From the IMG/VR virus record IMGVR_UViG_3300042291_000957, positions 26,420 through 90,419 of that record: a stretch of 64,000 bases of DNA; one strand, 5' to 3'. Source of the DNA: a virus. The notes beneath the pieces are model-generated. The model saw nothing but the letters and a program-made list of their open reading frames with translations. It was not told where the DNA came from and searched no databases. Position numbers and translations under genes: made by a program. Shown piece after piece: positions 47,441 to 64,000 of this stretch; position 1 is the first letter of the stretch; every line of letters begins with the position of its first letter.

Positions 47441-48204
47441 TGTATTTCTTCCAGTCTTGGTGCATACACCCCTATGTGTTGTACTGTTACTGCCGATGCC
47501 TTGTTTGCAAATTTTACTGCATCAGGAATGCGGCCTGTTTTTAAAAACTCGTATACTAATGCTGCTAAAAATGTATCACCTGCACCGCATACATCAGTTA
47601 CATCGCCTACAATTTCAGCAGGGTATATACAATCATTCCAATAAGCGCCACCTCCACCGTGCGTAACAATCAAATGCTCTGCGTTGGGTAAACTTGTTGC
47701 ACGACTTTTTTCCAGTGCATTAATCTTGACATAGCAACCTGATAGTCTTGCTAGGTCTGTTTTCTTTGTGTCAACAAAGATAGGCACGTCAACTTCTTTA
47801 ACTAGCTCTTCTATTAATTCGTAGGTCACTGTGCCTTTGTTGTAGTCACTGATTACAATGGCATCATACCCAGGAGGTATTGATGTGTCAAAAGTGATAG
47901 GATCGCTGGCAACATCTTGATCCATACGCAATAATTGTTGTTTGGTACGTGCATCGATTAATCTGTTTTTTTCGCTAGATTTGCCGTGTAGGAAGTTGAC
48001 TGTGCATCCCAATGCTTCTAGATTCTTACACACATTGCCAGCCATTCCATCTTTGTGAATAGTATACTGTGGTTCAAACACAGGAACTGGTGCTTCGGGA
48101 CTGATACGATTTACATAACCATAGGTGTAAATGTCGTGACAGTCGTCACCTATTAGCAATATCCTGAATTGTTTTAGTTGTTGAATAGTCGCTGACTCTG
48201 TCAT
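47437..48204 (-). CDS. hldE: Heptose kinase, N-terminal HldE-like domain
   Basis: PfkB-family sugar kinase. GDDCHDIYTYGYVNRISPEA followed by PVPVFEP is highly typical of RfaE/HldE domain I, and DVCGAGDTFLAALVYE is the PfkB ATP/anion-hole signature with its catalytic Asp. At 255 residues it is about 50 shorter than the bacterial domain. Bacteria carry domains I and II on one chain; here they are separate genes in reversed order. Overlaps the nucleotidyltransferase gene by 59 bases in a different frame. Confidence 0.83.
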   Translation of the reverse strand: MTESATIQQLKQFRILLIGDDCHDIYTYGYVNRISPEAPVPVFEPQYTIHKDGMAGNVCKNLEALGCTVNFLHGKSSEKNRLIDARTKQQLLRMDQDVASDPITFDTSIPPGYDAIVISDYNKGTVTYELIEELVKEVDVPIFVDTKKTDLARLSGCYVKINALEKSRATSLPNAEHLIVTHGGGGAYWNDCIYPAEIVGDVTDVCGAGDTFLAALVYEFLKTGRIPDAVKFANKASAVTVQHIGVYAPRLEEIQ

Positions 48205-48544
48205 AAAAAAATACCTTTGGTACGTGTGCTTCGCCTACTATACGCTGTCCGCGATAATCACTGCCTTTGACCATTACACTTGGTTTATACAGTTTGATTA
48301 ATGCTATCAGTTCTTCTTCGCTGTCAAAAAATTCTACAATATCAACAGCTTTTAAATTTTGTAACATCACTTTGCGATCAATCTGGTCGTTGATCGGCCG
48401 GCTTTGGCCTTTTAATTCTCGAACTCTTCTGTCTGTATCAATGCATACAACAAGATAATCTCCTAGACTACGAGCTGTGTTCAACATGGCAACATGCCCG
48501 GGATGCAAAATATCAAAAGTACCGTTAACTATTATTGTAGACAT
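48146..48544 (-). CDS. hldE: Heptose-1-phosphate nucleotidyltransferase, C-terminal HldE-like domain
   Basis: STIIVNGTFDILHPGHVAML has the HxGH motif and YDRVSDYSTTKTIQDIANR the ST..I end motif of HldE domain II (adenylyl transfer to heptose-1-phosphate). The centre RPINDQIDRKVMLQNLKAVD also fits. Standalone at 132 residues. First gene of the heptose trio (nucleotidyltransferase-kinase-epimerase); GmhA and GmhB are not seen and would come from the host. Confidence 0.85.
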   Translation of the reverse strand: MSTIIVNGTFDILHPGHVAMLNTARSLGDYLVVCIDTDRRVRELKGQSRPINDQIDRKVMLQNLKAVDIVEFFDSEEELIALIKLYKPSVMVKGSDYRGQRIVGEAHVPKVFFYDRVSDYSTTKTIQDIANR

Positions 48545-48545
48545 A

Positions 48546-49115
48546 CTAGTGATCCAGTGAATACCACCCGGTTATAATATATTTGTAACCCTTATATATG
48601 GGATTCCCCCTGTGAGGGTGGGTAAAATAGGCAGGCCAAATAACCAACTTGCCAGTTTCTGGTTTAATCTTAAGACCTTGATACAGAAATTCTGTTTCGC
48701 CACCCTCTTCAATATCATTGAGATACAAGGTATAAGCTAGGATTCTATTGGCTGATGATTGATCTGCATTTTCACAATGCCACGCATGGTAGCCTTGGCG
48801 CGGGCCGGTTCTCTGTACGCTCATGCCTTTGGGTGTGTGTTGAAAACAAAATCCAAGACTCTGATATTTTTCAAAATACTGTTCTATATAATACTTGTTT
48901 AGAGTTTTATAAAAGAAAGAACACAGGTCAGGATCTACGCTGAAATTTTGTTGACTGTGAAATGCCCAATCAAAAAATATTCGATCGTCCTGATTTTTCA
49001 TCATGCTGTTTTGTGTGAGATGTTGACCCATTTTGACCATATCTTCAAATCTTTGTATGATAGTTTTACAGTAGTCTTTGGGAAATGCGTCTGGATACAC
49101 TTCAATAAAATTCAT
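48546..49115 (-). CDS. 2OG-Fe(II) oxygenase-like protein
   Basis: P4H-like small enzyme: GYHAWHCENADQSSANRILA supplies an HxE-type iron pair, TLYLNDIEEGGETEFLYQGL the sheet, and WPAYFTHPHRGNPIYKGYKY the distal His with a Lys/Arg-type 2OG site. 189 residues. First of six consecutive or near-consecutive oxygenase-like genes. Substrate unknown. Confidence 0.8.
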   Translation of the reverse strand: MNFIEVYPDAFPKDYCKTIIQRFEDMVKMGQHLTQNSMMKNQDDRIFFDWAFHSQQNFSVDPDLCSFFYKTLNKYYIEQYFEKYQSLGFCFQHTPKGMSVQRTGPRQGYHAWHCENADQSSANRILAYTLYLNDIEEGGETEFLYQGLKIKPETGKLVIWPAYFTHPHRGNPIYKGYKYIITGWYSLDH

Positions 49116-49474
49116 CGTTGACTATCTCCGGGAAATATTCTAAAATTATCTTCTACTGAATCGGGGGTACTTACTTCGACTATGATTGAATTGTCTTCCA
49201 ACGCTTCAAGTTGATGCGGTAACCCTGGAGGATTATGCCAATTATCGCCTGTGTTTAAGATTTTTTCCTGCATCGTGGCAGTCTTTGTGTCTATGTATCT
49301 TAACAAGAAGCTACCCTGATTGACGTTCCAGCTTTCATCTTTGACAAGATGGTAATGCATACTGAACTTGTCGCCAGCCTTGGCAAACACCAGATATTTT
49401 CCACAGTATTGGTCAGTGGACGAAAATATTATTTCATGTCCCCAACCTTTTTCTATTTTACCGAATAATTTCAT
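49112..49474 (-). CDS. Cupin protein (sugar-phosphate isomerase-like)
   Basis: KFSMHYHLVKDESWNVNQGS holds HxH then E (metal motif 1) and WHNPPGLPHQLEALEDNSII the second motif with the last His. VFGKIEKGWGHEIIF-type opening (here MKLFGKIEKGWGHEIIFSST) is frequent in phage cupins of the mannose-6-phosphate isomerase type. 120 residues. Overlaps neighbours by four bases on both sides. Confidence 0.75.
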   Translation of the reverse strand: MKLFGKIEKGWGHEIIFSSTDQYCGKYLVFAKAGDKFSMHYHLVKDESWNVNQGSFLLRYIDTKTATMQEKILNTGDNWHNPPGLPHQLEALEDNSIIVEVSTPDSVEDNFRIFPGDSQR

Positions 49475-49986
49475 TTTTGAAAGTAATTTAAATTAATAAT
49501 AATTCTTCTTTTTGCATCTGTTGCACTTATCATTTTATGAGAAATAGCAGTATCAAAAATTAATATCCTGTTTTCAACAGAATCAATCCCAATTATTTCT
49601 TTTTCAACCTCTATCATCGTTTTAGCATTACAAGTTGTCATATATAATATGGCTGTTTTAGAATCTCCATCAGGGTAATCAACATGCCAAGAAGATTCGT
49701 ATCGATCTTCTTTACTTATAGACATATTTGTTCTAGCTTGGAGTAATGAAAAAACTTTTAATTTATATAATAATGATTCTAGTAAATTAAAGTAAGGACT
49801 ACAAACATGGTTGTTTATAAAGAAATTATGTGTAAAATAACACATACCGTGCTCATCATCTTTTGATGTCATATTGTCTCTATAAAACCAATTCATATCT
49901 AATGACGTTAGTGTATTTTTTATTGTATCAAAATATTCTTTATCTAAAAAATTATCTATTACTTCGTACTCTGATTTTTTAGTCAT
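49471..49986 (-). CDS. 2OG-Fe(II) oxygenase-like protein
   Basis: ESSWHVDYPDGDSKTAILYM has the HxD iron motif and LIFDTAISHKMISATDAKRR the distal His and R for 2-oxoglutarate. The N-terminal part YEVIDNFLDKEYFDTIKNTL is a frequent opening of the family in phages. 171 residues. Confidence 0.8.
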   Translation of the reverse strand: MTKKSEYEVIDNFLDKEYFDTIKNTLTSLDMNWFYRDNMTSKDDEHGMCYFTHNFFINNHVCSPYFNLLESLLYKLKVFSLLQARTNMSISKEDRYESSWHVDYPDGDSKTAILYMTTCNAKTMIEVEKEIIGIDSVENRILIFDTAISHKMISATDAKRRIIINLNYFQK

Positions 49987-50004
49987 AATAAAAATTCTCC
50001 TGCA

Positions 50005-50565
50005 TTAGCCGTAGATGTCGGCTGCATCATGATCTTTTACCGACACGTCCATGTTCCACGAAATGATTGTTTTAGTTTCTTCTGAGGTATTAATCGGAGC
50101 TCGGTGAATTACCCAGCTAGGAAATGTAATGATGTCACCTTCATGTACATCAAATATGTGTATATCTTTGGTCACTGGATCTATCCATTCTGTTTGGGTG
50201 CCGCCTTCAGGCAAATGCACATAATATACGTTGGTAAAGTTATTGCTATGGGTATGCCAGGCATGTTTGCCTCCAGTGGCATACTGTTGAAACCAAATTT
50301 CAGTAATACCAAATGTTTGATATCCCATGGTATTGCACCATTCGTTGAGATGAATAGCAAGAGGATAATTTATAATTTTAAGCCACTCTCTGTCGCCATC
50401 ATATCGAGATGTACTCCAATCGCATCTAATGATATCGCTGTTAAATGCCAGCATGTGTTCTGCTCGATCTTGTCTTGAAATGGCATCTATTACTTGTTGT
50501 TTTAGTTGAATATGTTCCTTAAATGGTTTAATACTTATAGGAAACGGTATAACAGTAGGTGACAT
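50005..50565 (-). CDS. 2OG-Fe(II) oxygenase-like protein
   Basis: GKHAWHTHSNNFTNVYYVHL has a His-rich iron segment (H-x-H rather than HxD), with GDIITFPSWVIHRAPINTSE and the distal His; ETKTIISWNMDVSV ends the barrel. One key residue deviates, so catalytic status is uncertain. 186 residues. Confidence 0.7.
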   Translation of the reverse strand: MSPTVIPFPISIKPFKEHIQLKQQVIDAISRQDRAEHMLAFNSDIIRCDWSTSRYDGDREWLKIINYPLAIHLNEWCNTMGYQTFGITEIWFQQYATGGKHAWHTHSNNFTNVYYVHLPEGGTQTEWIDPVTKDIHIFDVHEGDIITFPSWVIHRAPINTSEETKTIISWNMDVSVKDHDAADIYG

Positions 50566-51176
50566 TAGTACAAGCTACCTTGTCTTTTTATTACTATGTT
50601 TGATGCAAACACAACTCTTGATTCATTTGTTTGATTATAATATACATAATGTTCAAGACAGGATGGGAATATTATCAATATTCCTTCTTCCATTGGTGGC
50701 TTATATATGTTTTGATAGTGATCTTGCGGATCTAATTCTAAATATTTTAAATGATTTGATAAATTAGGAGTCCTGAAAACTAGCTGTCCCGAATCTGCAT
50801 TAGGTTGTTTTAGTATGACCACACACGAAAATGCCGGTACATTTGTTGTTATGTGATTGTGTAACTGTTGATGATCATATTGATTATGCACATTATACCA
50901 TGTATCTATTTCAACTTTATAGGAAAATTGAAACATAAAAGAATCTATGTAAGACTGGATATAGGGCGCAGGTAGTAATATATCATTCCATTTTTTAAAA
51001 AAGTCAGCATCGCTCCAGCGTTGAGATGCATTTTTAGAAATTCTACTTTCTTCGCCTTTGTATTCATCTTCTTTGCCATTTAATATCAATGGAAGATAAT
51101 GATCCTGTAGAATTTTTAGATCTACAGTATTCAATCGAGAAATGCTTACCGGATATCCTTCAAGATGTATTTTCAT
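50565..51176 (-). CDS. 2OG-Fe(II) oxygenase-like protein
   Basis: DHQQLHNHITTNVPAFSCVV (H-x-H segment), ILIIFPSCLEHYVYYNQTNE (distal His) and SRVVFASNIVI (the 2OG Arg) follow the 2OG barrel order. The frame starts MKIHLEGYPVSISRLNTVDL. The iron-motif acid is not obvious. 203 residues. Confidence 0.68.
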   Translation of the reverse strand: MKIHLEGYPVSISRLNTVDLKILQDHYLPLILNGKEDEYKGEESRISKNASQRWSDADFFKKWNDILLPAPYIQSYIDSFMFQFSYKVEIDTWYNVHNQYDHQQLHNHITTNVPAFSCVVILKQPNADSGQLVFRTPNLSNHLKYLELDPQDHYQNIYKPPMEEGILIIFPSCLEHYVYYNQTNESRVVFASNIVIKRQGSLY

Positions 51177-51904
51177 TAGATAGTATCTTTAGTATGAATG
51201 CCAGTTTTAAACCCAGTTGTAAGATCCACAGTGGTACCAGTGTTAAAGAAGTCAATTACTTTATTTGCTAAAATTTTATGATTAACTTCTGAAAAGTGGT
51301 TATAACGCAGATCGCCGCCAACTCTATTATGATATGTGTTACATGTTTCGATACTGTCAAACTCTAAGTTTGAGGTTTCAAACATATTTCCTTGTACCCC
51401 TGCAACGTTGTGAAACCCTGGCAGGATTAAAAATTGAATACCTTGTTGTGCATATAGCATAGTTCTAAGAGTTATTGCATCATAAATTGCATCATATTGT
51501 ATAAAAAGACGGTGATCGGAATGCAGATACTTTTTATACATTTCTAATGCCTTGGCTTGTTCTTTTGTAACATGAACTCCTGGCACAAATTTTGCATTTA
51601 GGAAATTTGCCATGCCTGGTTTATCTTCAAAAATCCATTCTCTGTAATAAGAAGTAAGCTGTACTATAACACAGTCCCCACTTTTAAACGACGATTCACG
51701 CTCTCTTAGGGTATGGAAAATGTATTCATTGGAACACCCGAGCTGAGAGTCATTTACATGATTATCATCCCCGATTAAACTTTCACTAACAATCCTAGTC
51801 CAATTCTTTTCTAACGGCATGAACGTTACTAGACCTGTAGGCCCAATAACTTCATTCTTGTGTGCATCGGGTACACTAAAACTATCGCCGAAAACATATA
51901 ACAT
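51176..51904 (-). CDS. SGNH/GDSL-like hydrolase
   Basis: MLYVFGDSFSVPDAHKNEVI is the GDSL block I with the catalytic Ser, NDSQLGCSNEYIFHTL is like the block II Gly, and GGDLRYNHFSEVNHKILANK gives the D-x-x-H-type end. SGNH enzymes remove or add acyl groups on sugars. It would fit modification or trimming of the heptose glycan. 242 residues; no signal peptide, so probably cytoplasmic. Confidence 0.72.
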   Translation of the reverse strand: MLYVFGDSFSVPDAHKNEVIGPTGLVTFMPLEKNWTRIVSESLIGDDNHVNDSQLGCSNEYIFHTLRERESSFKSGDCVIVQLTSYYREWIFEDKPGMANFLNAKFVPGVHVTKEQAKALEMYKKYLHSDHRLFIQYDAIYDAITLRTMLYAQQGIQFLILPGFHNVAGVQGNMFETSNLEFDSIETCNTYHNRVGGDLRYNHFSEVNHKILANKVIDFFNTGTTVDLTTGFKTGIHTKDTI

Positions 51905-52533
51905 TAATTAGTTGCTCCTGTTTCTAACAAAATATTGAAAGACAAACTAATACGATCTTCATTGGTTGTATTTTCATTAACACTGTGATCTAAATAGCCG
52001 GGCCACATACTTAATCTGCCTTGCTCTGGGGCAAATGCGTTTTCATGAGCATATGAACTACCAATTGGATTGCATTTTAATGCTTTAAGAGCATTTCTAA
52101 AAACTAGATCACCGTCTTGCCCATTTGTTTTAAACCAATACACTCCACTGACGTGGCTGGTACCGTGATCGTGAACATGAGCATACTGCCCCGGTTTGGT
52201 TAGTGTAAGCCATGAAGTTTCGATGGCTGCTTTGTACAGCGGTTTAACATTCATCATTCTCATATAATTAAAACAATGGTGCATTATACACGAAGTGATC
52301 ACTCTCATTTTTTCGTCTTTTAAAATAGACTGGTTAAAATCACCTTGATTAGATAGGTAATGAGTGTGAGAATTCCAATATGGATTTTGTCCCCAACGAT
52401 CTTCTAGATGCAGTTTATCAACCACAGTCTGCATCTCGGCCTGTATTTCAGTATATTCTTTGCTTTCTGTTTTGTATGTGTATAGGGGGGAAGGAAACAA
52501 GGAGTAAATTCGGCCTTCGGTTTGATTGTTCAT
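51904..52533 (-). CDS. 2OG-Fe(II) oxygenase-like protein
   Basis: GQYAHVHDHGTSHVSGVYWF gives the HxD motif with GDLVFRNALKALKCNP following; LSMWPGYLDHSVNENTTNED supplies the distal His and RISLSFNI the Arg. Start MNNQTEGRIYSLFPSPLYTY is set by GGAGGAAAAC before its ATG. The opening SLFPSPLYTY is characteristic of this subgroup. Confidence 0.82.
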   Translation of the reverse strand: MNNQTEGRIYSLFPSPLYTYKTESKEYTEIQAEMQTVVDKLHLEDRWGQNPYWNSHTHYLSNQGDFNQSILKDEKMRVITSCIMHHCFNYMRMMNVKPLYKAAIETSWLTLTKPGQYAHVHDHGTSHVSGVYWFKTNGQDGDLVFRNALKALKCNPIGSSYAHENAFAPEQGRLSMWPGYLDHSVNENTTNEDRISLSFNILLETGATN

Positions 52534-52547
52534 GTTTTCCTCCATAT

Positions 52548-53138
52548 TTAAATAAACATCATCTGATTGATTCTGTAAGCATCTTCAACAAACCAATCAG
52601 GTTGCATCACTGCGGTGTGAACATCAGTTTGCCTGTATAATACCAATCTATTAAAAGCCATTTCTGCATATCCTAGTTCTTGTCCGGTTTCAGAATAAAA
52701 AGCTGTGCCGCCGTGAGATTCGTCATTGTAGTTTAAATATACCGATGCTGCAAATCTACCTGGATCTGCACTATCTCTATGGGGAGTTGGCTGGTCTTGT
52801 CCTTGCATTACATTTACCATGAATGTTATAAAATCAAATGTTTTACGTATGTCTTTATCAATCTTGCGAGGACCGTCATTAAAATTTTCACTGATTAGTT
52901 TAACAAACGTATCGGCTAAACTTGTTAGATTAATTCCAAGACTAATTGACAGTCCGGGGTATGTATTTCTAATCATGCTCTTCGATGCAGGAATAGAAAG
53001 AGCCAATTCTCTAACTTTTTCAGGATTAAGATAAAAGTTATCAACAATGACACATTTGGTATCACCTAACTGATGTACATGTACTTCAAAATTAGGATTA
53101 ACTGCAAATATATCTTGTTCATTTATTTTTTTAATCAT
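52548..53138 (-). CDS. 2OG-like oxygenase (DUF6445-type)
   Basis: FYLNPEKVRELALSIPASKS and TYPGLSISLG resemble DUF6445-like proteins; QDQPTPHRDSADPGRFAASV is the HxD-type motif, GTAFYSETGQELGY the sheet, and DVHTAVMQPDWFVED the distal His. Frequently seen in glycan islands of marine phages. 196 residues. Confidence 0.7.
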   Translation of the reverse strand: MIKKINEQDIFAVNPNFEVHVHQLGDTKCVIVDNFYLNPEKVRELALSIPASKSMIRNTYPGLSISLGINLTSLADTFVKLISENFNDGPRKIDKDIRKTFDFITFMVNVMQGQDQPTPHRDSADPGRFAASVYLNYNDESHGGTAFYSETGQELGYAEMAFNRLVLYRQTDVHTAVMQPDWFVEDAYRINQMMFI

Positions 53139-54958
53139 GCTCTGTCATTATGTTCAATCTCTACCATCATTTTAACAGCTGGAAAATAAATGTAATTAAT
53201 TCCTGAGTTGTAAAGAGTACGCATGGCATCGTCGATGGTTTCAACCAATGGCTCGCCGCCTAGGTTAAAGCTGGTATTAAACAATGCAGGAACACCTGTT
53301 TGATTTTTAAATTCTTTAATCAGATTATACCAATGAAAGTTTTGTTCTTCAGTCACTGTTTGAATTCTACAGGTACCATCAACGTGTATAACTGCTGGAA
53401 TCTTTTCTTTCACGCCCGGCTGACAATTTACAGCATACATCATAGACGGAGAATCTTCCATGCCACGCAGATCAAACCAATCGTGTACATCATCTTGTAA
53501 TACTGATGCAGCAAATGGTCTAAAATATTCTCGTTTTTTAATCAAATTAACAAAATCTTTACCGTCGGCAAATGTTGGATCAAACATCAGTGATCTGTTG
53601 CCTAGTGCTCTAGGACCGTTTTCGCAGCGTTCTTGGAATAGTGCTACGATGTTTTTAGATCTAATAGTCTTAATAACATCTTTGTAATCAACATTTATTG
53701 TTACGCTGCCACTGTATTTGGCCGCAGTTTCTATAACTGCATCTTCAGTGATATGTTGTACCGGACCTAAAAATAAATTTTCATCTTTTGATCTTACTTT
53801 TGTATCTTGAGATGTTTTATAGTAATGATAAAATGCTGCACCCATAGCTGTACCTGCATCGTTCGAAACAGGTTCAACATATATCTTTACACCTTCCGGT
53901 AAGTGCTGTAGATAGAAATAGTTGGCAACACAATTTAAACCATACCCGCCGCTGATAACGATATTTTTATTACCTGTACGTTTAATTGATTTTAGAATCA
54001 AGTCAAGTACTAGTTGTTGCGATTCAGTTTGTACATTGTAGGCCATGTTTCTTCTAGAAGCCAATTGTGTTAGATCTTCTGCATCAGCTTCACGCATTTG
54101 TTGCTCGTACCGCTGCATTTGTCGTTGATCGTTGGGGTCAGTCACTGATCTATGAATTACTTTTGGATCGTACACCCTGTCATCTAGTTCAGCATAGCCT
54201 TCTTCATTGACCAGTGCGCCATTGGGATATGTATTAGTGAATAGATCTTTATTCCCACCAAAATTACCATAAATCTTAGGTGCTTTGTTCGGTTCTCCAT
54301 ACGGAAACAGACCCATAGTTTTACCCGCTTCTATCGAGTCGAATCCACAAAATCTAGTTACTGCTTCATATGCTTTAACAATACCTGTTTTATCATTAAC
54401 TATAACTTCTGTACCGTTCCCATCACTGTTGTAATGTTCAGTCCTCCAAGGTCCGTTGCCTCCAAAATGCTTGTACACTTCCTCAAAGTTTGCAGGGTAT
54501 GAACAATCATATATACTTTCAACTTCAAACATGGTTTGACCGTCGGGGCGTTCAATAAATGTACCTGCCCCATCTACAATAATAGCACTTGCTTTATCAA
54601 ACCCAGATCTATAAAATGCCAACGCGGCGTGACTTCTATGGTGTTGATCGTGATATTTAATTACTTGGGTATTAACATCGTCGATTAATCTCAACTTCCT
54701 AGCAAGTGCAGAATACACATCTTGCCTTACAAAATCGTTTATTGGTTCGTCATGACCTTGTGTGTGAGATATTACCAAATAATCAATCTTGTCAGTATAG
54801 TCAAGAATTTTAATCATACTCGCAAGCGGGCCGCCGTCATATTTGTAGCGAGATAGTCTTTCTTCTTCAATAGAAAATACAATTTGTCCATCTTTTAAAA
54901 GACAAACTCCTGCATTATGCCCTCGAGCAATACCTGCAATGTATCCTGTTTTTTTCAT
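53135..54958 (-). CDS. O-carbamoyltransferase (NodU/CmcH/TobZ-like)
   Basis: MKKTGYIAGIARGHNAGVCL is the N-terminal HxxxxC-type signature, with SIEEERLSRYKYDGGPLASM, HRSHAALAFYRSGFDKASAI and IIVDGAGTF; the C-terminal half has GGYGLNCVANYFYLQHLPEG and ENGPRALGNRSLMFDPTFAD then TGVPALFNTSFNLGGEPLV. The family transfers carbamoyl from carbamoyl phosphate through carbamoyl-AMP to sugar hydroxyls. Start at 54958 is set by AAGGA. The 607-residue length is usual. Its sugar substrate may be heptose. Confidence 0.9.
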   Translation of the reverse strand: MKKTGYIAGIARGHNAGVCLLKDGQIVFSIEEERLSRYKYDGGPLASMIKILDYTDKIDYLVISHTQGHDEPINDFVRQDVYSALARKLRLIDDVNTQVIKYHDQHHRSHAALAFYRSGFDKASAIIVDGAGTFIERPDGQTMFEVESIYDCSYPANFEEVYKHFGGNGPWRTEHYNSDGNGTEVIVNDKTGIVKAYEAVTRFCGFDSIEAGKTMGLFPYGEPNKAPKIYGNFGGNKDLFTNTYPNGALVNEEGYAELDDRVYDPKVIHRSVTDPNDQRQMQRYEQQMREADAEDLTQLASRRNMAYNVQTESQQLVLDLILKSIKRTGNKNIVISGGYGLNCVANYFYLQHLPEGVKIYVEPVSNDAGTAMGAAFYHYYKTSQDTKVRSKDENLFLGPVQHITEDAVIETAAKYSGSVTINVDYKDVIKTIRSKNIVALFQERCENGPRALGNRSLMFDPTFADGKDFVNLIKKREYFRPFAASVLQDDVHDWFDLRGMEDSPSMMYAVNCQPGVKEKIPAVIHVDGTCRIQTVTEEQNFHWYNLIKEFKNQTGVPALFNTSFNLGGEPLVETIDDAMRTLYNSGINYIYFPAVKMMVEIEHNDRA

Positions 54959-54981
54959 TATTTTTCCTTGTGACATTTATT

Positions 54982-55968
54982 TTAAGCACAGCCGGGTGCA
55001 GCACACCCAGCAGCTTGTTTGGGTTCAGCATATGCCTTGGCAGTTTTACTCAATGTAGTTTTAATCCCGTTGGTAATTGTCTTAATAGTTTCGTCATTGA
55101 GCACCATTAGATTTTCATTGTGTCTATCAATCCTAATGTCTATCGCAACTCTTATTGGAGAATACTTTCTTTCGTCTTTGCCGTTATCGATTATAGTAAG
55201 TGTACTGCTACTAGGATACGAAATGTTTTCAGGGAATGTACCGCCTATAACCACTGTGCCCGGTTTCTTTAAGGCATGTGCAATATGCTGTCCCACTGAG
55301 TCGCAGCCCAAGAAATAATCAGCAGCATTGATAATTGCAGTCCATTGTAAAAGACTAACGCTTTCCGGTACCATTACCCCTAATGCTTTGTTTCCAGGAA
55401 TTTTTAACTCGCTCATCATTATAACAGCGTAATTTTTATTCAGTTCTTCAAGTATTTTTATAATATCATCAACTTCGAATGATCTACCACTTTCGTCAAT
55501 GATGGTGTTGCCCTGTAATCCAGCTGTTTTTCCAAATGGTTGGAAGATTACTACTTGTTGCTTTTTAAAATGATTTCTAGCTTCATTGACTAGTTCGTTT
55601 GCTTGTGCAATATCCTTTTTGCCAATAAAAATATCATATTCTTTGGTTTCTGGGATAAGTTCAGGCGGAACATCGTAGTTGATCAACATGTCAAACGCCT
55701 GCACAAGATTGCATCTTTGAGTAAAGTATGCGTTTAGTTTATACGGTTCGGGAGTTATGATTTCTCTATCTTTTAATTTTTCAAAAAGATCTGGGTTTGT
55801 AGCATGATGCACATTATTTGCTAATGTTTTGCTGGTTAAATATAGATCAATCCAACCTTCAACAACAATGACTGCTGTTGGATCAGTGTTTTTAACATAG
55901 TACTCTAGTGCGGGAATGGCGCATAGTACTCGACCTGCGCCGCCATTTATAAAAAATGCTTTTTTCAT
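54982..55968 (-). CDS. GT9-like heptosyltransferase
   Basis: AFFINGGAGRVLCAIPALEY replaces the GDxxxxxP opening of ADP-heptose:LPS heptosyltransferases, and FLGCDSVGQHIAHALKKPGT is the donor-site block (D-S-G..H in WaaC/WaaF). HFKKQQVVIFQPFG is the linker. It ends in Cys-rich AAGCAAPGCA. GT9 enzymes use ADP-heptose, which the genes downstream would make. No signal for secretion; probably cytoplasmic. 328 residues. Confidence 0.72.
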   Translation of the reverse strand: MKKAFFINGGAGRVLCAIPALEYYVKNTDPTAVIVVEGWIDLYLTSKTLANNVHHATNPDLFEKLKDREIITPEPYKLNAYFTQRCNLVQAFDMLINYDVPPELIPETKEYDIFIGKKDIAQANELVNEARNHFKKQQVVIFQPFGKTAGLQGNTIIDESGRSFEVDDIIKILEELNKNYAVIMMSELKIPGNKALGVMVPESVSLLQWTAIINAADYFLGCDSVGQHIAHALKKPGTVVIGGTFPENISYPSSSTLTIIDNGKDERKYSPIRVAIDIRIDRHNENLMVLNDETIKTITNGIKTTLSKTAKAYAEPKQAAGCAAPGCA

Positions 55969-55998
55969 TGATATCGTAACCTTTGCTATCTAGTACGA

Positions 55999-56006
55999 TA
56001 TTTATT
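55999..56006 (-). promoter_or_regulatory. Late promoter motif for heptose/oxygenase operon (AATAAATA)
   Basis: Minus-strand AATAAATA, 31 bases before the GT9 start, in a 114-base gap that contains nothing else but the hairpin at 56047. Drives the long run 55968 to 46571. Confidence 0.45.
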
Positions 56007-56046
56007 TTGAGGGCTAGGCCTCTAAGAATAATGTGAGCGAGCGTTG

Positions 56047-56074
56047 AGTATTGTGCTGTTACCAGCACAATACT
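56047..56074 (-). terminator. Perfect 12-base hairpin after 56083 gene
   Basis: AGTATTGTGCTG / CAGCACAATACT with four-base loop, nine bases after the stop codon. No T-run on the minus strand. May be a Rho-independent-like or RNase-stable end between fibre genes and the heptose operon. Confidence 0.6.
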
Positions 56075-56082
56075 ATTGGAAA

Positions 56083-56799
56083 TTAGTAAACGCCTGGGGG
56101 TAGATTTTGTAAAGCATCGGCATCGGAGGCATCTCTGTCTGCGATTCTAATAACCTTAACATGCTCATTTTCAAATTCCATGTTGGGTCCGTCTTCAGGA
56201 CTACGCGGAAATCTTACAAGATATTTAGGAACATCTGCCCAATCTGCAGGAAGGTCTCTAAGTTTTTGTCTATAATCCAGCCATTGTTGTTTTAGAGCTT
56301 CTGGCATATCTGGAGCAATTTTGCCATCACTTGCAGCTAGTCTTGTATCTCTCTCACGTCTAATAAACGCATCATCTCTAATTCTTTTGTTCTCAAAGAA
56401 TTTAAGCGGTGCTGTGTAATCGTCAGTTACAGATTGTTTATCATAAACTATTCTAATATCTGAAGGATCTACAACTGTGGCGTTTGGTTGATCGACTGGA
56501 CCAACCGAAACTTCGTAGATCTTTGGGTCTTCTAATCCGCCGTAGATCAATCCAATTTTGCAGCAGTTTATGTCGGTGTCTGCTTTTAATATTTCTCTTT
56601 TGAGATCTAATGGAAGCGGACGATCAGGTTCGTCTTCTGGTGCAAACGCCTGCATTAAATAGCCAGTTTCTTTATCAAGCCACATGACTATTTCTTCTGG
56701 GCCTTCGTATAACTGTGTACTGGTTTTACCCAACGTATTTTCCAACGAAAATAAGTGATCTGGTATACTGTATGTTAGCATTTTGGTTATCTTTGCCAT
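56083..56799 (-). CDS. Tail-fibre-assembly-like protein, 238 aa
   Basis: MAKITKMLTYSIPDHLFSLE begins a protein with ALKQQWLDYRQKLRDLPADW near residue 170, a helix typical of tail fibre assembly (XkdW/gp38-like) proteins, followed by YLVRFPRSPEDGPNMEF. It sits directly downstream of the two Cys-rich fibre genes, which supports a chaperone or adaptor role. Not certain. Confidence 0.6.
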   Translation of the reverse strand: MAKITKMLTYSIPDHLFSLENTLGKTSTQLYEGPEEIVMWLDKETGYLMQAFAPEDEPDRPLPLDLKREILKADTDINCCKIGLIYGGLEDPKIYEVSVGPVDQPNATVVDPSDIRIVYDKQSVTDDYTAPLKFFENKRIRDDAFIRRERDTRLAASDGKIAPDMPEALKQQWLDYRQKLRDLPADWADVPKYLVRFPRSPEDGPNMEFENEHVKVIRIADRDASDADALQNLPPGVY

Positions 56800-56809
56800 T
56801 TATTTCTCC

Positions 56810-57637
56810 TTAACTGTACGTTATTCTAACAAGGCCGCCAGCGCCAAAACTGCCCCAGCAGGCACTCGATGAGTCGATTGCGTGGCCTGAGCCGCCACCG
56901 CCTGGGAAAGCTGCGTGTGCTGAACAGCAGGCCAAATTGCCCACGCAGCGATGTTTGCCGCCAATTCCATGAGGTGCAGCCCACGGGCCGCTTGGGCCTC
57001 CTGCTACTGCGAACGCATCAGCACAACAGTTGTATTGGTGATTGTATGATCCAGTTGTGCCTCTAAAACACATGTCGGACCCGTATACTGGCGTATTACA
57101 GGCGTGATTGACCCAACCGGCATTGTAGTTGCCTAGATCGCATTGAGTATTTCCAATGTGGCAGTTATAGCAGTTTGAGATCATGTCCCAAGAAGTTGAC
57201 CCGCCCATGCCGCCGATGGCACAGAAATTGCTGAGACCAGTGCCATTGACAAAACTGGTGCATCCATGTCGACAATTTTGATTACATGAACAGCAGCAGC
57301 TACATTCCGATGAGCCAGCGGCACATACAGTATATGTTGCGCCATCTGCAAATCCATTTACTGATTTTTGCAGGGTTCTTACGCCGTAATTGCCGCCTTG
57401 GCCACCAACTCCGTGATCATGGTCACCACCTGATGAGCCACCTGGGCCGCCACCTGACAGTATTTCAAACTTGATCGACGTGGTTCCATTAGGTACTACA
57501 AAAGCACAACAGCGACCACCATTTAGTGGTGTCCAGTTGTTGGTATTCCAAACATAGATTTCATACTGTTCTGCAATTTTACATTGATGTTGAGCGTTAG
57601 CGTAAATTATTCCTGCACTTGATAAACACGTTGGCAT
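56810..57637 (-). CDS. Gly/Cys-rich tail-tip protein, paralogue A
   Basis: A 275-residue protein with 24 Cys, unusually many for a phage cytoplasmic protein. FVVPNGTTSIKFEILSGGGP is a beta module, ECSCCCSCNQNCRHGCTSFV and CAIGGMGGSTSWDMISNCYN are Cys/Gly-rich, and GSFGAGGLVRITYS is the C-terminal Gly-rich end. It resembles marine-phage glycine-rich adhesin tips. Possible disulfide mesh or metal clusters. Its leader AGGAGAAATAAATG is identical to that of copy B. Confidence 0.7.
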   Translation of the reverse strand: MPTCLSSAGIIYANAQHQCKIAEQYEIYVWNTNNWTPLNGGRCCAFVVPNGTTSIKFEILSGGGPGGSSGGDHDHGVGGQGGNYGVRTLQKSVNGFADGATYTVCAAGSSECSCCCSCNQNCRHGCTSFVNGTGLSNFCAIGGMGGSTSWDMISNCYNCHIGNTQCDLGNYNAGWVNHACNTPVYGSDMCFRGTTGSYNHQYNCCADAFAVAGGPSGPWAAPHGIGGKHRCVGNLACCSAHAAFPGGGGSGHAIDSSSACWGSFGAGGLVRITYS

Positions 57638-57647
57638 TTATTTCTCC

Positions 57648-58475
57648 TTAACTATATGTTATTCTAACAAGACCACCGGCGCCAAAGCTGCCCCAGCAGG
57701 CACTCGATGAGTCGGTTGCGTGGCCTGCGCCGCCACCACCTGGCCAGGTTGCGTGTGCTGAACAACAGGCCAAATTGCCCACGCAGCGATGTTTGCCGCC
57801 AACTCCATGATTTGTGCTAATTGGTCCGGAAGGTGAGCCTGCAACAGAAAAGTTATCTGCACAACAGTCATATGAAGAATTGTATGATCCAGCTGTGCCT
57901 CTAAAACACATATCAGACCCGTATACTGGTGTATCACAAGCATTATTGCCCCAACCGGCATTGTAGTTACCCACGTTACACTGAACATTACCAATGTGGC
58001 AGTTATAGCAGCTGGAGGTCATATCCCACATAGTAAAGCCACCCATGCCGCCGATGGCACAGAAATTGCTGAGACCAGTGCCATTGACAAAGCTGGTGCA
58101 TCCATGTCGACAATTTTGATTACATGAACAGCAGCAGCTACAATCCGATGAGCCAGCAGCGCATACAGTATATACAGAGCCATCTGTAAATCCATTCACT
58201 GATTTTTGCAATGTTCTTACGCCGTAATTGCCGCCTTGGCCACCGATGCCGTGATCATAGTCACCACCTGACGAGCCACCTGGGCCGCCACCTGACAGTA
58301 TTTCAAACTTGATTGTAGTAGTCCCTGTGGGTACTGTCCACGCACAACACTGGCCACCATTTTGTGGGCTCCAATTGTTGAGATTCCAGATATACTGTTC
58401 TCTTTGTTCTTCGATCCTGCACTTGTGCTGACCGTTGGAAAAAATTATACCGCAATTTGATAATTGTACTGGCAT
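57648..58475 (-). CDS. Gly/Cys-rich tail-tip protein, paralogue B
   Basis: Same length (275) and 24 Cys, with 23 of them at the same positions as in copy A; the cores from GGGPGGSSGGD to the end are mostly identical. N-terminus (MPVQLSNCGIIFSNGQHKCR) and two loops (WDMTSSCYNCH, NSSYDCCADNFSVAGSPSG) vary. The duplication with variable loops fits host-range diversification. Confidence 0.7.
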   Translation of the reverse strand: MPVQLSNCGIIFSNGQHKCRIEEQREQYIWNLNNWSPQNGGQCCAWTVPTGTTTIKFEILSGGGPGGSSGGDYDHGIGGQGGNYGVRTLQKSVNGFTDGSVYTVCAAGSSDCSCCCSCNQNCRHGCTSFVNGTGLSNFCAIGGMGGFTMWDMTSSCYNCHIGNVQCNVGNYNAGWGNNACDTPVYGSDMCFRGTAGSYNSSYDCCADNFSVAGSPSGPISTNHGVGGKHRCVGNLACCSAHATWPGGGGAGHATDSSSACWGSFGAGGLVRITYS

Positions 58476-58477
58476 TT

Positions 58478-59353
58478 TTAATTCTCTCTTTTCATATCTT
58501 CAATTTCTGCTTTTAGAGCCTTGACAGCTTCTATCAGCAAAGGAATTAATTTTTCATACTTTACAGCAAGATATCCATCTTCTCTTTCAACCACAGCTGA
58601 TGGTATTATTTCTTTTACTTCTTGAGCAAGAACTCCTACGTCCAGCATGGTACGTTCTGGATACATTTCTTGCGCAATTTTATTCCAGTGATACTGATAG
58701 CCTGATATTTTTAGTAATTTTTCTAGGCTATTATCAATCTTTGAAATATTCTCTTTCAGTTTAATATCCGAAGCTGCATATGCAACAATTTCTCCGCCTA
58801 CATACATGGCACCAGTTACGCCAACGCCGCCAGTGACTGTTAGTGTTCCGGTAGAGTTGCTGCTGCTGGTCTGAGCACCTAATAAATTCAACTTACCAGT
58901 GCTTGGTTGATATGTCATTTTGGTAGACGACACATTCACGGCAGTTATATTGCCCGATGTAGCTGAGGTGAGCAAAGGATAGTGTAGGGTTGCCGATGTT
59001 GTTTGATCACTGAGTGAAATACCAGCCGATGCAAAACTTAATGTTCCAGAGCCGTTGGTTGAAAGAAGTTGATTGGCTGTGCCGTCAGCGGCAGGCAGTG
59101 TCCATACTAAATTAGCTGATATTGTTGCAGGGGCTTGAAATCCAACGTAATTTGACGAATCACTATCTGCGAATCGCAAATCATTTTGTGCATTTAACTG
59201 AATGTTTGCGGTAGCAACAACTTGTCCAGTTCCGCCCGGACTAAGAGTGATATTCTGATCCGCCGCGGTGGTCAAGGCTTGTTCGGGCGAAATTTGAATA
59301 GATCCTACTAGTGCAGGGCTACCCACAAGTCCGCTATTGATTCTTCTTGCCAT
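58478..59353 (-). CDS. Tail fibre with S74 self-cleaving chaperone domain
   Basis: The N-terminal shaft is beta-rich (GVGVTGAMYVGGEIV). The C-terminal 100 residues are a peptidase S74 intramolecular chaperone: AASDIKLKENISKIDNSLEK, then VGVLAQEVKEIIPSAVV and GYLAVKYEKLIPLLIEAVKA and a coiled-coil end. S195 and K200 are the expected Ser-Lys dyad (spacing five, as in endosialidase). It would trimerise the fibre and cleave itself off. Confidence 0.88.
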   Translation of the reverse strand: MARRINSGLVGSPALVGSIQISPEQALTTAADQNITLSPGGTGQVVATANIQLNAQNDLRFADSDSSNYVGFQAPATISANLVWTLPAADGTANQLLSTNGSGTLSFASAGISLSDQTTSATLHYPLLTSATSGNITAVNVSSTKMTYQPSTGKLNLLGAQTSSSNSTGTLTVTGGVGVTGAMYVGGEIVAYAASDIKLKENISKIDNSLEKLLKISGYQYHWNKIAQEMYPERTMLDVGVLAQEVKEIIPSAVVEREDGYLAVKYEKLIPLLIEAVKALKAEIEDMKREN

Positions 59354-59368
59354 GATCTTATCCTTTTA

Positions 59369-59689
59369 TTAAGCTGTTGCAGTTTCAATACCGTAGACTA
59401 CAGCATTTACACCTATAGCACTTGAGCGAACAACTAATAGTTTTCCGGCATCTAGTACAATACCTGTGCGCTCTAGCACACCTTTAGCTGACAGACTAGT
59501 GTCAAATTCAATATATTCCGAATCTGCTGGTGTGGCTGATGACGATACTGCTACTCTAACGGTAGCTGCCGAAGCACCTCTGTTTACTATATTGACAGTT
59601 ACTACTGAAAATGTGCTTGCGGGTACTGTATACAGCGTAGTATTCGTTGCCGCTGCTAGATCTGCTATTCCTAATCTTCCTGTTGCCAT
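59369..59689 (-). CDS. Small virion-type protein, 106 aa
   Basis: MATGRLGIADLAAATNTTLY then VPASTFSVVTVNIVNRGASA and SEYIEFDTSLSAKGVLERTG form a beta-sandwich-like small protein common in marine phage tail regions. GGAG ribosome site and AATAAATA late motif precede it. Possibly a tip or decoration unit. Confidence 0.65.
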   Translation of the reverse strand: MATGRLGIADLAAATNTTLYTVPASTFSVVTVNIVNRGASAATVRVAVSSSATPADSEYIEFDTSLSAKGVLERTGIVLDAGKLLVVRSSAIGVNAVVYGIETATA

Positions 59690-59704
59690 AATGTATTCTC
59701 CATG

Positions 59705-59712
59705 TATTTATT
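59705..59712 (-). promoter_or_regulatory. Late promoter motif (AATAAATA)
   Basis: Minus-strand AATAAATA just after the stop of the giant gene and 15 bases before the 59369 start region; GGAG follows. Confidence 0.45.
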
Positions 59713-62700
59713 TAGCTTAAAAAGTAATTGAATGCTATAGGTATGCCTATGACTCCGCCTCTGAACTCAAAGACTGCATTCATCTTGATTGGTCCTGCTG
59801 TTACCGTAGTTATCACGTTTGAGCTGATAAAAATACTACCTGCTGTTACGGAGTTAACATTCAAGCTGGCACCACCACCGCCAATCTGTCCGGCGATATA
59901 TGCTTTGATTGCTCGTTGTGTGGGTACGATGTTATCTGAATCTGCTGTAAAGAACGGGTCTGTTGAAAATTCAGTGATTGTAGCTGACCCACCTCCCAGT
60001 GTTACGTTGCCCAGGTTAAGTTCTTGCAGTCCTGAAATATTAAACGCATCTGCATTTAATGTAGCAATACCAGTTGATTGTTCAATGGCAAACAAATCGC
60101 CAACTCGGAAGTTACCGTCTTGGTCAGTACTTGTAAAGAACACTCTACCCCCACCATTTTCTACTGTTTCATTTGCAGGAATTGCCGATTGTAGTGGTAT
60201 TCCTGGATAATTAGTATCGATGAAGCTGCCTGTACCTATGTCTAAGAAGTCATGTCCTGTAAGTCGAACTTGGCTGTATTTCAGTCGCGTAGTAACATCT
60301 GTGCCGTCAGGTGGCGCTTCTGATATGGTTAGTTGCGGGCTGATCTGTAAAAACGCTGTGTAGGCGCCGTCGTTAGTGCCCAAGAATGTAATCACGTTGA
60401 CTAACTTGAAAGTTCTGTCAGGTAAATGACTGAACACCACATTTGCACCTGGTGTAGGACGTTCAAAAAGTCTGCGAGTGGCCACAAAAGTGCCAGGTTG
60501 AAACAGATCTGAATAACCATCACCGGTATCTACTTCACCGCTGCCTGTGACAAACTGTGTGCCCCTGTTTACAAAACTAGGATTAGCCAATACACCACTG
60601 TTTTTCCTTACTGTCACAGGAGATTCAAACGTGTTGTTAGGATCGGTAAATGTGATTGTAGGCACAGTAGCGTAGCCTGATCCAGGTTCTGTGATATTGA
60701 CCTGGAATAGTTTGTCAGCGGCCACTTTGGCTCGACCTCTAGCAGTAGCGCCGGTTCTGATATATGTAGCTACATCACCTGTGCTGCCACCGACTCCCAC
60801 AAACAAGCCGTAACGATTTCTATTACCAAAAGTGATTGCTGAGAAACCACTAGCAGCCGTAGAAGTAGTTCTGGTTGTCCATGTCACTCCATCTGGCGAT
60901 GTAGCTGCTGCTGTAGTTGTGCTCACTGCAAGGAATACTCCCTGACCGTAAGTGACTTTAGTCCAAACTGCTGTAGCTGGTAATGTGCTGGCTGTCCAAG
61001 TTATACCGTCTAAACTATAAGCAGCAATAGTACCGCTAGTGCTTGAAATAGCAACGAATCTGTTGTTACCGTAAGCGATGCTGTTCCAGTTTGAGCTAGA
61101 AGGCAATGTGCCTGCAGTCCAAGTGCCTGTGACTGTGGTCGATGTAGCATAATTAGTTACGTTGGTACCACTCTTGATTGCAACAAATCTGTTTTTGCCG
61201 TAAGCGATAGCTGTAAATCCAGTGGTAGTTAATGTACCAGTTTGATCCCAATTTTCACCGTCATTGCTGATTCGTACTGTGGTTACATCACTGCTAACAG
61301 CTACAAATTTTTGTTTACCAAAAGCCACATCAACCCATGTAGCAGAAGTCTGCATGCTAGTTGCTGACCAAGTAATACCATCATCACTGTATGCTCCAGT
61401 GGTATTAGCACTAGTGCCAACCACGGCAACAAATTTGCTGACCTTGCCTACAGAAGAACTGTCGTCAAACAGGCCTGCAGTCATTGCTGACCATGCTGCT
61501 GCGCTAGGCATCAAGCTGGCTCTAGTAGTCCATGCTACTCCATCTTCTGAAGTTGCACCTACTGTGCTTCCGCTTCTTAAGGCCACATATCTACCACCAA
61601 TACCGTAACCGCTGTGATCAAATTCTAAGATAGCACCTGTGGTAGAATTCACTGCGGTGATTGTAATCACTAGATCGTTAGCAGTTGTAGTGCCGCCTAG
61701 GCTGGTACCTAATATGGTTATGGTCTCTAATCTAGTATAACCTGTTCCAGCACCTTGAATAGATGGTATATATTTCCATCCATTACGTATCACTGTGAAG
61801 GTAGCTCCTGTGCCCGAACCTGCATATGTTCCTGTTACCGTAGTATACACAGAAGTAGTTTCACCGTATTTCGCAGCGGTCCATGTGCCTGAAGTTGGCA
61901 GTGTGACTGCTGTGCTGGCATATCCAGGCGCTGAGAACGTTACTCTAGGTTCAATAATATATGTAGTAGAAGCATCAGGCGATGTAATTGCAGTGCCCGC
62001 AACCAAATGATCAAATCCTGCTGTGCCGTCTGATTCTTTAAGTAATCCTGCTACTTTAGTGCCTGAATTATATGTGTTAATGATACCAAACTGACCAACA
62101 CCTGCGCCACCTGTTAACACAATCTTCATACCTATGTAGGCAGTGCTAGATTCACCGTCTGTAGCAGCAATGGTCACTGAAGTAGAAGTGCCGCCCTGTG
62201 CAGTATTGGAGTTGGTTATGTAACCAAAGCCTCCAAGATTGCCTTCTGCCTCTGGGGCATTTGTACTGTCATCAACAAGATCCAACATGCGAACTTCAAA
62301 TACAGCATCGTCACGGAATTCATCATTCTCAACAACTTGCCCACTTCCGCCACCTGTGAGTGTATAACTGACTTCTGTGTAATCTATACCTGCATTTTGG
62401 AATTCTATTTGCAGCAAGGCAGATCCGTCAGTGATCACACGATCAATCACTGCTTCAAACTGTAGTCTGTTGTCAACTACTCCAGTTCCTGCAGTTTCGG
62501 TTGCATCAAAACCTTCTGCTACGGATCCAAAATCACCGTATGAGTTGTTACCGTTGGTTGCTCTGATTCGACCACCGTTTTCTGCTAGATATGCAATGTG
62601 GGCGTAATAGCTAAACACGGACACTAATTCAGCACGACCGTTGTTGGTAATCCAAGCGCCAATACCGTCTGATATTACCTGTGTAAAGTCGTTGGAAACA

Positions 62701-64000
62701 ATACTGTCGTTGCCGCCGTTATGCAAAGCACCATCAATCTTTTGACCAACAGCCGCTGTACCTAGAGTAGTAACACCCTGCACATAAGGTGAACGTGTTA
62801 TAATCCAAGTACGATAATCTTCTGGGCCCCAGCCTGGATCAAGCGATGCATACGCACCTGCAGATACTCTTGAGGTACCGTATTCATTTTCGGCTAACAG
62901 ATCTCCAGTAAGTCCTTGCAGAGTTTGATCTCTAACACCAGTAGCGTCTCTGAGATAATACATGTCTTCTTCTAGGCTGCCCATCACACTGTTTGCATAG
63001 TATCTAGCTGCGTATCTAGATTTGTAGTTGCCTGGATATTTCAAATCATACTTTAGTGCATCAATGTAAGCATTAACATCTCTGAGGCAGGCTGTGCTGC
63101 TGTAGAATAGACTCACTGTCATAGACCCACTACCGTCGCTGGCAATATCAAACGCTGTATTTGAATCTCTTGTGGTAGCAATCTTAAAAGTAGTTGAGCT
63201 GACCACATTCTGTACATAATAAGTGGTTGTGGTATTGACTCCGCCAAATACAGTACCAGTGAATCTAATAGCTGCGTTTCTGGTCATCCAAGCAGTTGAT
63301 GTGCAGGTAAACAAGTCAGTGGCTGCTGTGGCTGCTGTGACCGCGGTAGTGTAGGTTGAATCAATGTAAGCATCAATTTCTGCAACAATATAGTCTCTGT
63401 TGCGCTCTAATTGTAGCACAGCATAGTCAACCATTCTATTGCCTGTGGCACAACGACTGCCTTCATTGGTAGCACCGTAGACAATATCATCTACCATGGT
63501 CATTAGTGTTTCAATACGAGCCTGTGCTGTAGCATCGCCGCCTACGTTGGCCAGTGCTTCTGTCTTGGCATTAGTTAGTGCGTCTCTAGTAATGGTTTTT
63601 TGATTACCAACAAACACATCTGCTGCTGAAGCTCTTAGATATGAGTATGCTGCTTCTCTAGTTTTGAAGTTGCTGTTGAACATAAAGTCAAACATCACAG
63701 CTTCTAGGATCAATCGAGTATCTCTAATACATTTGGTTTGGAGATATCGAATCTTAGGTGTAACTCCGTCAGTTTTGTACGCACTTGGGAATATCGCATT
63801 AAAGGCTGTACCACCTGACGATAAGCAAGATACAGTAATGCTTGTTATGTTAACAATATCACCTGCTGCTAAACCGTGTGTTGCAGTAGTCACTACCGCA
63901 TATCCTGTAGAGTTATTATAGACAAAGTTACTAACTGCTAACTCTGTTCCATTGGATTTCGTTACTATTCCACCACTGACATAGGTGTGTGCGAGAGTAT
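59712..64000 (-). CDS. Giant tail-fibre/virion protein, partial (N-terminus beyond window)
   Basis: The frame is open from 64000 leftwards, so at least 1,428 residues are visible. A C-terminal baseplate- or fibre-like end (GVIGIPIAFNYFLS) follows a region with DSDNIVPTQRAIKAYIAGQI. Genomic 60745-61610 encodes seven repeats of about 40 residues with a YGNNRFVAISS strand and SLDGITWTASTLP-like turn, suggesting a seven-bladed beta-propeller. The earlier half has helical bundle parts (RDYIVAEIDAYIDSTYTTAV) and SDPGWGPEDY-type loops. Large marine myovirus fibres show this mix. Confidence 0.85.
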   Translation of the reverse strand, partial: TLAHTYVSGGIVTKSNGTELAVSNFVYNNSTGYAVVTTATHGLAAGDIVNITSITVSCLSSGGTAFNAIFPSAYKTDGVTPKIRYLQTKCIRDTRLILEAVMFDFMFNSNFKTREAAYSYLRASAADVFVGNQKTITRDALTNAKTEALANVGGDATAQARIETLMTMVDDIVYGATNEGSRCATGNRMVDYAVLQLERNRDYIVAEIDAYIDSTYTTAVTAATAATDLFTCTSTAWMTRNAAIRFTGTVFGGVNTTTTYYVQNVVSSTTFKIATTRDSNTAFDIASDGSGSMTVSLFYSSTACLRDVNAYIDALKYDLKYPGNYKSRYAARYYANSVMGSLEEDMYYLRDATGVRDQTLQGLTGDLLAENEYGTSRVSAGAYASLDPGWGPEDYRTWIITRSPYVQGVTTLGTAAVGQKIDGALHNGGNDSIVSNDFTQVISDGIGAWITNNGRAELVSVFSYYAHIAYLAENGGRIRATNGNNSYGDFGSVAEGFDATETAGTGVVDNRLQFEAVIDRVITDGSALLQIEFQNAGIDYTEVSYTLTGGGSGQVVENDEFRDDAVFEVRMLDLVDDSTNAPEAEGNLGGFGYITNSNTAQGGTSTSVTIAATDGESSTAYIGMKIVLTGGAGVGQFGIINTYNSGTKVAGLLKESDGTAGFDHLVAGTAITSPDASTTYIIEPRVTFSAPGYASTAVTLPTSGTWTAAKYGETTSVYTTVTGTYAGSGTGATFTVIRNGWKYIPSIQGAGTGYTRLETITILGTSLGGTTTANDLVITITAVNSTTGAILEFDHSGYGIGGRYVALRSGSTVGATSEDGVAWTTRASLMPSAAAWSAMTAGLFDDSSSVGKVSKFVAVVGTSANTTGAYSDDGITWSATSMQTSATWVDVAFGKQKFVAVSSDVTTVRISNDGENWDQTGTLTTTGFTAIAYGKNRFVAIKSGTNVTNYATSTTVTGTWTAGTLPSSSNWNSIAYGNNRFVAISSTSGTIAAYSLDGITWTASTLPATAVWTKVTYGQGVFLAVSTTTAAATSPDGVTWTTRTTSTAASGFSAITFGNRNRYGLFVGVGGSTGDVATYIRTGATARGRAKVAADKLFQVNITEPGSGYATVPTITFTDPNNTFESPVTVRKNSGVLANPSFVNRGTQFVTGSGEVDTGDGYSDLFQPGTFVATRRLFERPTPGANVVFSHLPDRTFKLVNVITFLGTNDGAYTAFLQISPQLTISEAPPDGTDVTTRLKYSQVRLTGHDFLDIGTGSFIDTNYPGIPLQSAIPANETVENGGGRVFFTSTDQDGNFRVGDLFAIEQSTGIATLNADAFNISGLQELNLGNVTLGGGSATITEFSTDPFFTADSDNIVPTQRAIKAYIAGQIGGGGASLNVNSVTAGSIFISSNVITTVTAGPIKMNAVFEFRGGVIGIPIAFNYFLS
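60745..61610 (-). repeat. Seven propeller-like repeats inside giant fibre gene
   Basis: About seven degenerate 120-base units, each encoding a (F/Y)G..(K/R)FVA(V/I)S strand and an (S)xDGxTW Asp-box-like turn. Units 4-6 are most alike. Confidence 0.75.

Follow-up and report, generated by a model that had tools for sequence, protein, structure and literature searches.

Twin cysteine-rich proteins, probable tail-fibre-tip adhesins, in a Kyanoviridae-like virus

Two adjacent genes in a viral contig encode proteins of equal length that are crowded with cysteine (Cys), and the locus raises the question of what these proteins do for the virus. An original prediction, made from the sequence, took them for host-contact proteins that may form a disulfide- or metal-stabilised tip after release. 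We analyzed the window, i.e., the whole stretch of 64,000 nucleotides (positions 26,420 to 90,419 of IMG/VR record IMGVR_UViG_3300042291_000957), together with homologous loci. The source record, a fragment of 90,419 bases, carries tail sheath, terminase, and baseplate-connector genes, and psbA was not found in it. The carbamoyltransferase of the window is nearest to that of S-SSM7 (55%), so the uncultured virus is Kyanoviridae-like. The tail sheath ORF (window 35591-39058) has 1155 aa and matches the 915-position sheath PHROG end to end; being longer than the PHROG, it seems to carry insertions.

Twin genes share most of their cysteine positions

Both ORFs and the alignment of their products bear out the twin arrangement that had been described (Table 1). 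A total of 23 Cys positions are common to the two copies, with C8 present only in copy 1 and C4 only in copy 2. DNA identity is 82%, close to the protein identity, and the differences cluster in residues 1-54, 147-181, and 195-225, which agrees with the predicted variable N-terminus and two variable loops. Residues 105-146 are nearly identical. Cys makes up 8.7% of the twin proteins vs 1.01% (198/19577 residues) of the remaining ORFs in the window. Given this background, the binomial probability of at least 24 Cys in 275 residues is 2e-15, and the Cys-richest window ORF after the twins reaches 2.8%. Gaps of 10 bases separate copy 1 from copy 2 and copy 2 from the gene after it, and the start context AAGGAGAAATAAATG is present in both. 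The same twin arrangement was seen again in homologous IMG/VR contigs.

Table 1. Coordinates of the twin genes, their neighbours, and regions within the twin genes (positions in the window)
Feature	Position	Strand	Details and evidence
Cys-rich glycine-rich adhesin (probable), copy 1	57648..58475	-	275 aa, 24 Cys; PF21722 E 1.8e-6, 28.6 bits; phrog_4205 E 9e-54; AlphaFold model resembles Pam3 fibre
Cys-rich glycine-rich adhesin (probable), copy 2	56810..57637	-	275 aa, 24 Cys; PF21722 E 2.5e-6; phrog_4205 E 2e-50; 81% identical to copy 1
Putative fibre/adhesin assembly chaperone (APC), 238 aa	56083..56799	-	Phage_tail_APC PF16778 E 9e-11; phrog_4912 tail fiber assembly E 3e-9; gene order
S74 (endosialidase-chaperone) protein, tail-fibre distal type	58478..59353	-	PF13884 E 1.2e-14; tail fibre PHROGs
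Small fibre-associated protein, 106 aa	59369..59689	-	phrog_11338 tail fiber E 9e-12
Long tail fibre protein, at least 1393 aa (start uncertain, close to the window edge)	59712..63893	-	phrog_9851 tail fiber E 1e-70
Cluster of 9 Cys in copy 1 (residues 105-139), the best-conserved stretch	58059..58163	-	dN/dS 0.03 among close relatives
Matching Cys cluster in copy 2 (residues 105-139)	57221..57325	-	Low dS between copies over residues 108-146
N-terminus specific to copy 1 (residues 1-24), candidate docking address	58404..58475	-	Same-copy vs other-copy identity
N-terminus specific to copy 2 (residues 1-24)	57566..57637	-	Same-copy vs other-copy identity
Variable loop region of copy 1, residues 191-230	57786..57905	-	Highest dN/dS (0.18), high entropy

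A widespread family of hypothetical proteins

Both copies match the Gly_rich_2 domain (PF21722) above its gathering cut-off (28.1 and 28.6 bits vs 24.3) and cover positions 8-225 and 6-225 of the 226-position profile. They also belong to phrog_4205, a PHROG family with no assigned function, which was matched by all 23 members of one alignment set (A1). PF21722 itself was matched at E ≤0.001 by 57 of 100 diverse family members. Scans of IMG/VR yielded 31 close loci, at least 392 relatives in the alignment scan, and 89 around the S-SSM7 member. With tblastn at E 1e-5, the twin protein had no matches among phages; relaxed-E and degenerate-pattern searches revealed relatives in S-SSM7, Sf-FS3, P-SSM2/P-SSM5, S-CAM1, and S-CAM3, all annotated as hypothetical and with 24-36 Cys per protein. 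Among them are PSSM2_304/306, SSSM7_114-116, and SXBG_00224-226 of the laboratory cyanophages P-SSM2, S-SSM7, and S-CAM1, and such proteins are poor in Lys/Arg. The phrog_4205 proteins of the Kyanoviridae P-SSM2, S-SSM7, Sf-FS3, S-CAM1, and S-CAM3 resemble the window pair in family, multiple copies, and gene order as well as Cys number, but they are only about 25-36% identical to it and occur in two or three copies per genome. Three full copies were found at 83 loci and two at 50 loci; these numbers were taken from the full-copy listing because phmmer overlooked some copies in the locus searches.

Searches of the twin proteins against PDB sequences (phmmer and profile), PADLOC, and NCBIfam gave no matches, nor did an Rfam search of window 44000-64000. 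No description of this Cys-rich adhesin variant was found in the literature.

Several observations concern individual members. Three contigs of GTDB MAGs (L182, L183, and L184, assigned to Actinomycetota, Flavobacteriales, and Rhodobacteraceae) each carry a three-copy array of the cyanophage type and are probably phage DNA mis-binned with bacteria. In L183, the C-terminal loop is identical in all three copies (YCGDGHCGQGG), which looks like homogenisation. Four loci (L083, L087, L090, and L097) encode a third, longer Cys-rich type (370-373 aa) beside a 276-278 aa copy, and the first three of them also have two APC genes in succession. The annotated ORF SSSM7_117 (L034:13032-13361) overlaps the third Cys-rich gene in a different frame and is probably spurious.

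Predicted fold resembles a phage fibre tip

Structure prediction had been proposed as a check on the host-contact role, and the AlphaFold model of copy 1 (100-sequence alignment; mean pLDDT 77.7, pTM 0.77, some loops near 50) resembles the TNF-like and glycine-rich fibre tip of cyanophage Pam3. In a Foldseek search of the PDB, Pam3 fibre gp24 (7ypx and 7yfw) was matched at E 2.8e-5 to 7e-5 with prob 1.00; the match is moderate, with a TM of about 0.5 and an rmsd near 7 Å. Among viral models, the best matches were family members of S-CAM3 and P-SSM2, followed by the fibre of podovirus NATL2A-133 and by numerous other fibres and proteins with Gly-rich domains. Glycine motifs were located at approximately 62-67 (GGGPGG), 76-82 (GIGGQGG), 142-146 (GGMGG), 246-251 (GGGGAG), and 265-268 (GAGG), and they flank the Cys-bearing stretches on both sides.

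Pam3 gp24 is a virion fibre whose TNF-like and glycine-rich domains are proposed to recognize the receptor, and it folds with a dedicated chaperone, gp25 (PMC9608196). The likeness to the window pair lies in a TNF-like beta-sandwich running into a glycine-motif stack with variable tip loops, and in the adjoining chaperone gene (PDB 7YPX). Unlike the window pair, gp24 has its own helical shaft and no Cys network has been described for it. The T-even gp38 adhesins of S16 and PP01, which form a polyglycine II sandwich, likewise present variable tip loops on a glycine-motif scaffold at the fibre end (PMC12892980). However, they had no sequence match to the window pair (phmmer and profile) and were not among the top fold matches. 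We know of no Cys network in T-even gp38 adhesins.

Conserved gene slot next to tail fibre genes

When about 175 loci were searched with the window's proteins, one gene order recurred: the tail fibre gene is followed by those for the 106-aa protein and the S74 protein, then by one to three Cys-rich copies, and lastly by the APC, GT9-like, and carbamoyltransferase genes. Other loci have DUF6445 in between or an alternating C-APC-C-APC order, and the APC gene lies downstream of the Cys-rich genes in most relatives. The APC model is of high confidence (pLDDT 94.5) and matched no PDB fold at E ≤0.001, including Pam3 gp25 and Mu Tfa, so its assignment draws on the Pfam/PHROG domain and gene order. 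Judging from these, its product is probably a folding chaperone for the adhesins. The T4-type late-promoter motif ATAAATA occurs at 59705-59711 (minus strand), ahead of the 106-aa gene; this motif is not enriched in the window.

Genes of surface-sugar type lie near the adhesin genes (window 46571-55968), comprising a nucleotide-sugar epimerase, a GT9-like protein, a carbamoyltransferase, and two 2OG/DUF6445 proteins, and the GT9-carbamoyltransferase pair is kept next to the adhesins across loci. One ORF (window 52548-53138) is probably mislabelled as a coat protein: the PHROG it matches is named "minor coat protein", but Pfam identifies DUF6445 and a weak match to a 2OG-Fe(II) oxygenase.

Synechococcus phage Syn9 has a tandem Gly_rich_2 pair, gp38 and gp39, in the slot after the tail fibre. 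Syn9 gp38 matches PF21722 at E 2e-10 and aligns with the Cys-rich family by HHalign (prob 94.9, E 4e-8), whereas it has just 2 Cys in 266 aa and a more glycine-rich domain (28% vs 20% Gly in the window pair). Since a Cys-poor relative occupies the equivalent slot, the Cys-rich form appears to be a variant of an ordinary Gly-rich adhesin. The two Syn9 proteins (L180:30343-32327) are annotated as "tail fiber assembly", yet their Gly_rich_2 domains make them look like adhesins. A non-Gly-rich stretch of gp39 resembles an out-of-frame segment.

Taken together, the PF21722 domain, the Pam3 fold, the conserved slot, and the Syn9 counterpart mean that the pair is best read as tail-fibre-tip adhesins, and the host-contact role originally proposed is well supported by the domain, the gp24 match, the slot, and the adjoining chaperone gene. 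We consider it likely that the twin genes encode fibre-tip adhesins of a T4-like, Kyanoviridae-related virus, with loop Cys that are probably cross-linked and copies that may dock separately. The Cys-rich adhesins are best regarded as a widespread variant of a known fold that forms a family without a named function. Each adhesin would begin with a short docking N-terminus and continue as a TNF-like beta-sandwich and a stack of glycine motifs, the tip loops of which would contact the host, and the product of the next gene would fold it as a chaperone. Virion presence, trimerisation, receptor binding, and the Cys state of the twin proteins are inferred. A literature search found no virion proteomics for a phage with the Cys-rich family. 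In the S-CREM2 virion proteome, ORF86, which follows the long fibre, is a hypothetical protein with one peptide (PMC10665884); it was dropped as virion evidence because S-CREM2 is not among the Cys-rich family matches.

Evolution of the two copies

Among 13 non-redundant twin-copy genomes, residues 1-24 have an identity of 0.83 with the same copy across genomes vs 0.66 with the other copy, a difference reached in 0/200 permutations. Residues 25-275 carry little copy-specific signal (0-4 points), and the sequences of copies 1 and 2 are intermixed in the tree. Between the window copies, residues 108-146 have a dN of 0.01 and a dS of 0.13, vs a dS of 0.33-1.74 elsewhere, and this low dS is consistent with gene conversion. 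Our reading is that conversion homogenised the shared body while each copy retained its own N-terminus, possibly a docking address by which the two copies would be placed at different sites. In the three-copy subfamily, the pattern is less clear-cut: several segments are copy-specific, among them the N-terminus and region 181-220, while the copies of one genome have scattered core columns in common.

The two copies might instead be alternative receptor binders that evolve independently and carry host-range loops. Variability is among the highest at residues 191-230 and 147-190, and the matching region is copy-specific in the three-copy subfamily. However, in the twin-copy subfamily the bodies of copy 1 and copy 2 resemble each other almost as closely as those of orthologues do, and dN/dS is only 0.13-0.18 in the loops, so that we give this alternative no more than tentative credence. 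Among close relatives, selection is purifying in all segments (dN/dS 0.03-0.18), with the lowest value in the Cys cluster, and dN/dS analysis of the loops found no positive selection. The suggestion that loops control host range is therefore no more than plausible: the loops are among the most variable parts, but they are constrained like all other segments. A further tentative idea, which we likewise hold to be doubtful, is a redox-matured tip of multiple paralogues, in which two or three paralogues dock by their copy-specific N-termini at distinct sites or in one heteromeric tip, their Cys-rich core being homogenised by conversion and their loops locked by disulfides only outside the reducing cell.

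Conservation and possible chemistry of the cysteines

Cys conservation in homologues, on which the original prediction depended, was assessed in 100 diverse members. As that prediction required, Cys was found to be the best-conserved residue type (mean 0.71 vs 0.64 for Gly), with C105, C139, and C204 invariant and C112, C115, and C126 accounting for at least 95% of the residues present. In this set, 53 members have an even and 47 an odd number of Cys, and with such mixed parity a scheme of intrachain disulfides alone would not suit every member. Some Cys pairs co-occur (e.g., 159/166 with phi 0.96 and 114/122 with phi 0.92); they follow clades and are confounded by ancestry. The stated rarity of such proteins in phages holds for their extreme Cys content but not for the family, which viral contigs from the environment commonly encode, and Agrobacterium phage Milano is known to have tail and baseplate proteins joined by disulfides (PMC10811340).

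The subfamily, with about 20-36 Cys, would carry most of them in loops between the glycine motifs. In the twin proteins, Cys positions are mainly found there, in the presumed tip loops, and so loop cross-linking is their likeliest role. Most likely, on this distribution, the Cys cross-link the tip loops, either by a bound metal or by disulfides that would form once the particle is released into oxygenated water. The Milano example demonstrates that a phage tail can acquire a disulfide network despite cytoplasmic assembly (PMC10811340), although there the linked proteins are other ones, sheath and baseplate subunits, and its structural proteins contain about 2.1% Cys vs 8.7% in the window pair.

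The main rival is a metal site within the same tip adhesin, with Zn, Fe, or an iron-sulfur cluster bound in place of disulfides. A dense CxCCCxCx3Cx3C cluster at residues 112-126 and the frequent odd Cys counts (47/100 members) would suit it, and assembly in the cytoplasm would favour metal over disulfide. Nevertheless, Cys 114, 116, and 122 of this cluster are often substituted or absent while the fold family persists, many Cys are far from the cluster, and the twin proteins have no metal-binding Pfam or NCBIfam match. We consider metal binding in place of disulfides rather unlikely and favour cross-linking after release. Searches for glutaredoxin and thioredoxin in the 90 kb record, a fragment, found none.

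Other roles for the twin proteins

It is less probable that the pair are decoration or baseplate proteins of the virion. Some minor tail proteins, too, have Gly-rich domains: the twin proteins weakly match phrog_416 (minor tail protein), and the Bxb1 tail-tip protein was also a top Foldseek hit (E 2e-5), followed by weak matches to the ALK extracellular region. The genes nevertheless lie right after those for the tail fibre and S74 protein and before the assembly chaperone, where Syn9 has its adhesin-like proteins, making this placement improbable. A non-structural role as a secreted or intracellular Cys-rich protein, e.g., metallothionein-like or anti-defence, would accommodate the extreme Cys content and a PHROG family without assigned function but is very hard to reconcile with the structural operon, the Gly_rich_2 fold, the adjoining fibre chaperone, and the lack of a defence-family match in PADLOC.

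Implications

If the twin genes are read as fibre-tip adhesins, a widespread family of hypothetical proteins in environmental phages of Kyanoviridae type gains a likely function and fold; P-SSM2 and S-SSM7, both studied for a long time, are among its carriers. This reading also supplies candidates for host recognition in phages for which few receptor-binding proteins are known. How several paralogous tips sit on one particle is a question posed by the copy-specific N-termini. If the Cys are cross-linked, this would be an unusual way of hardening a phage adhesin.
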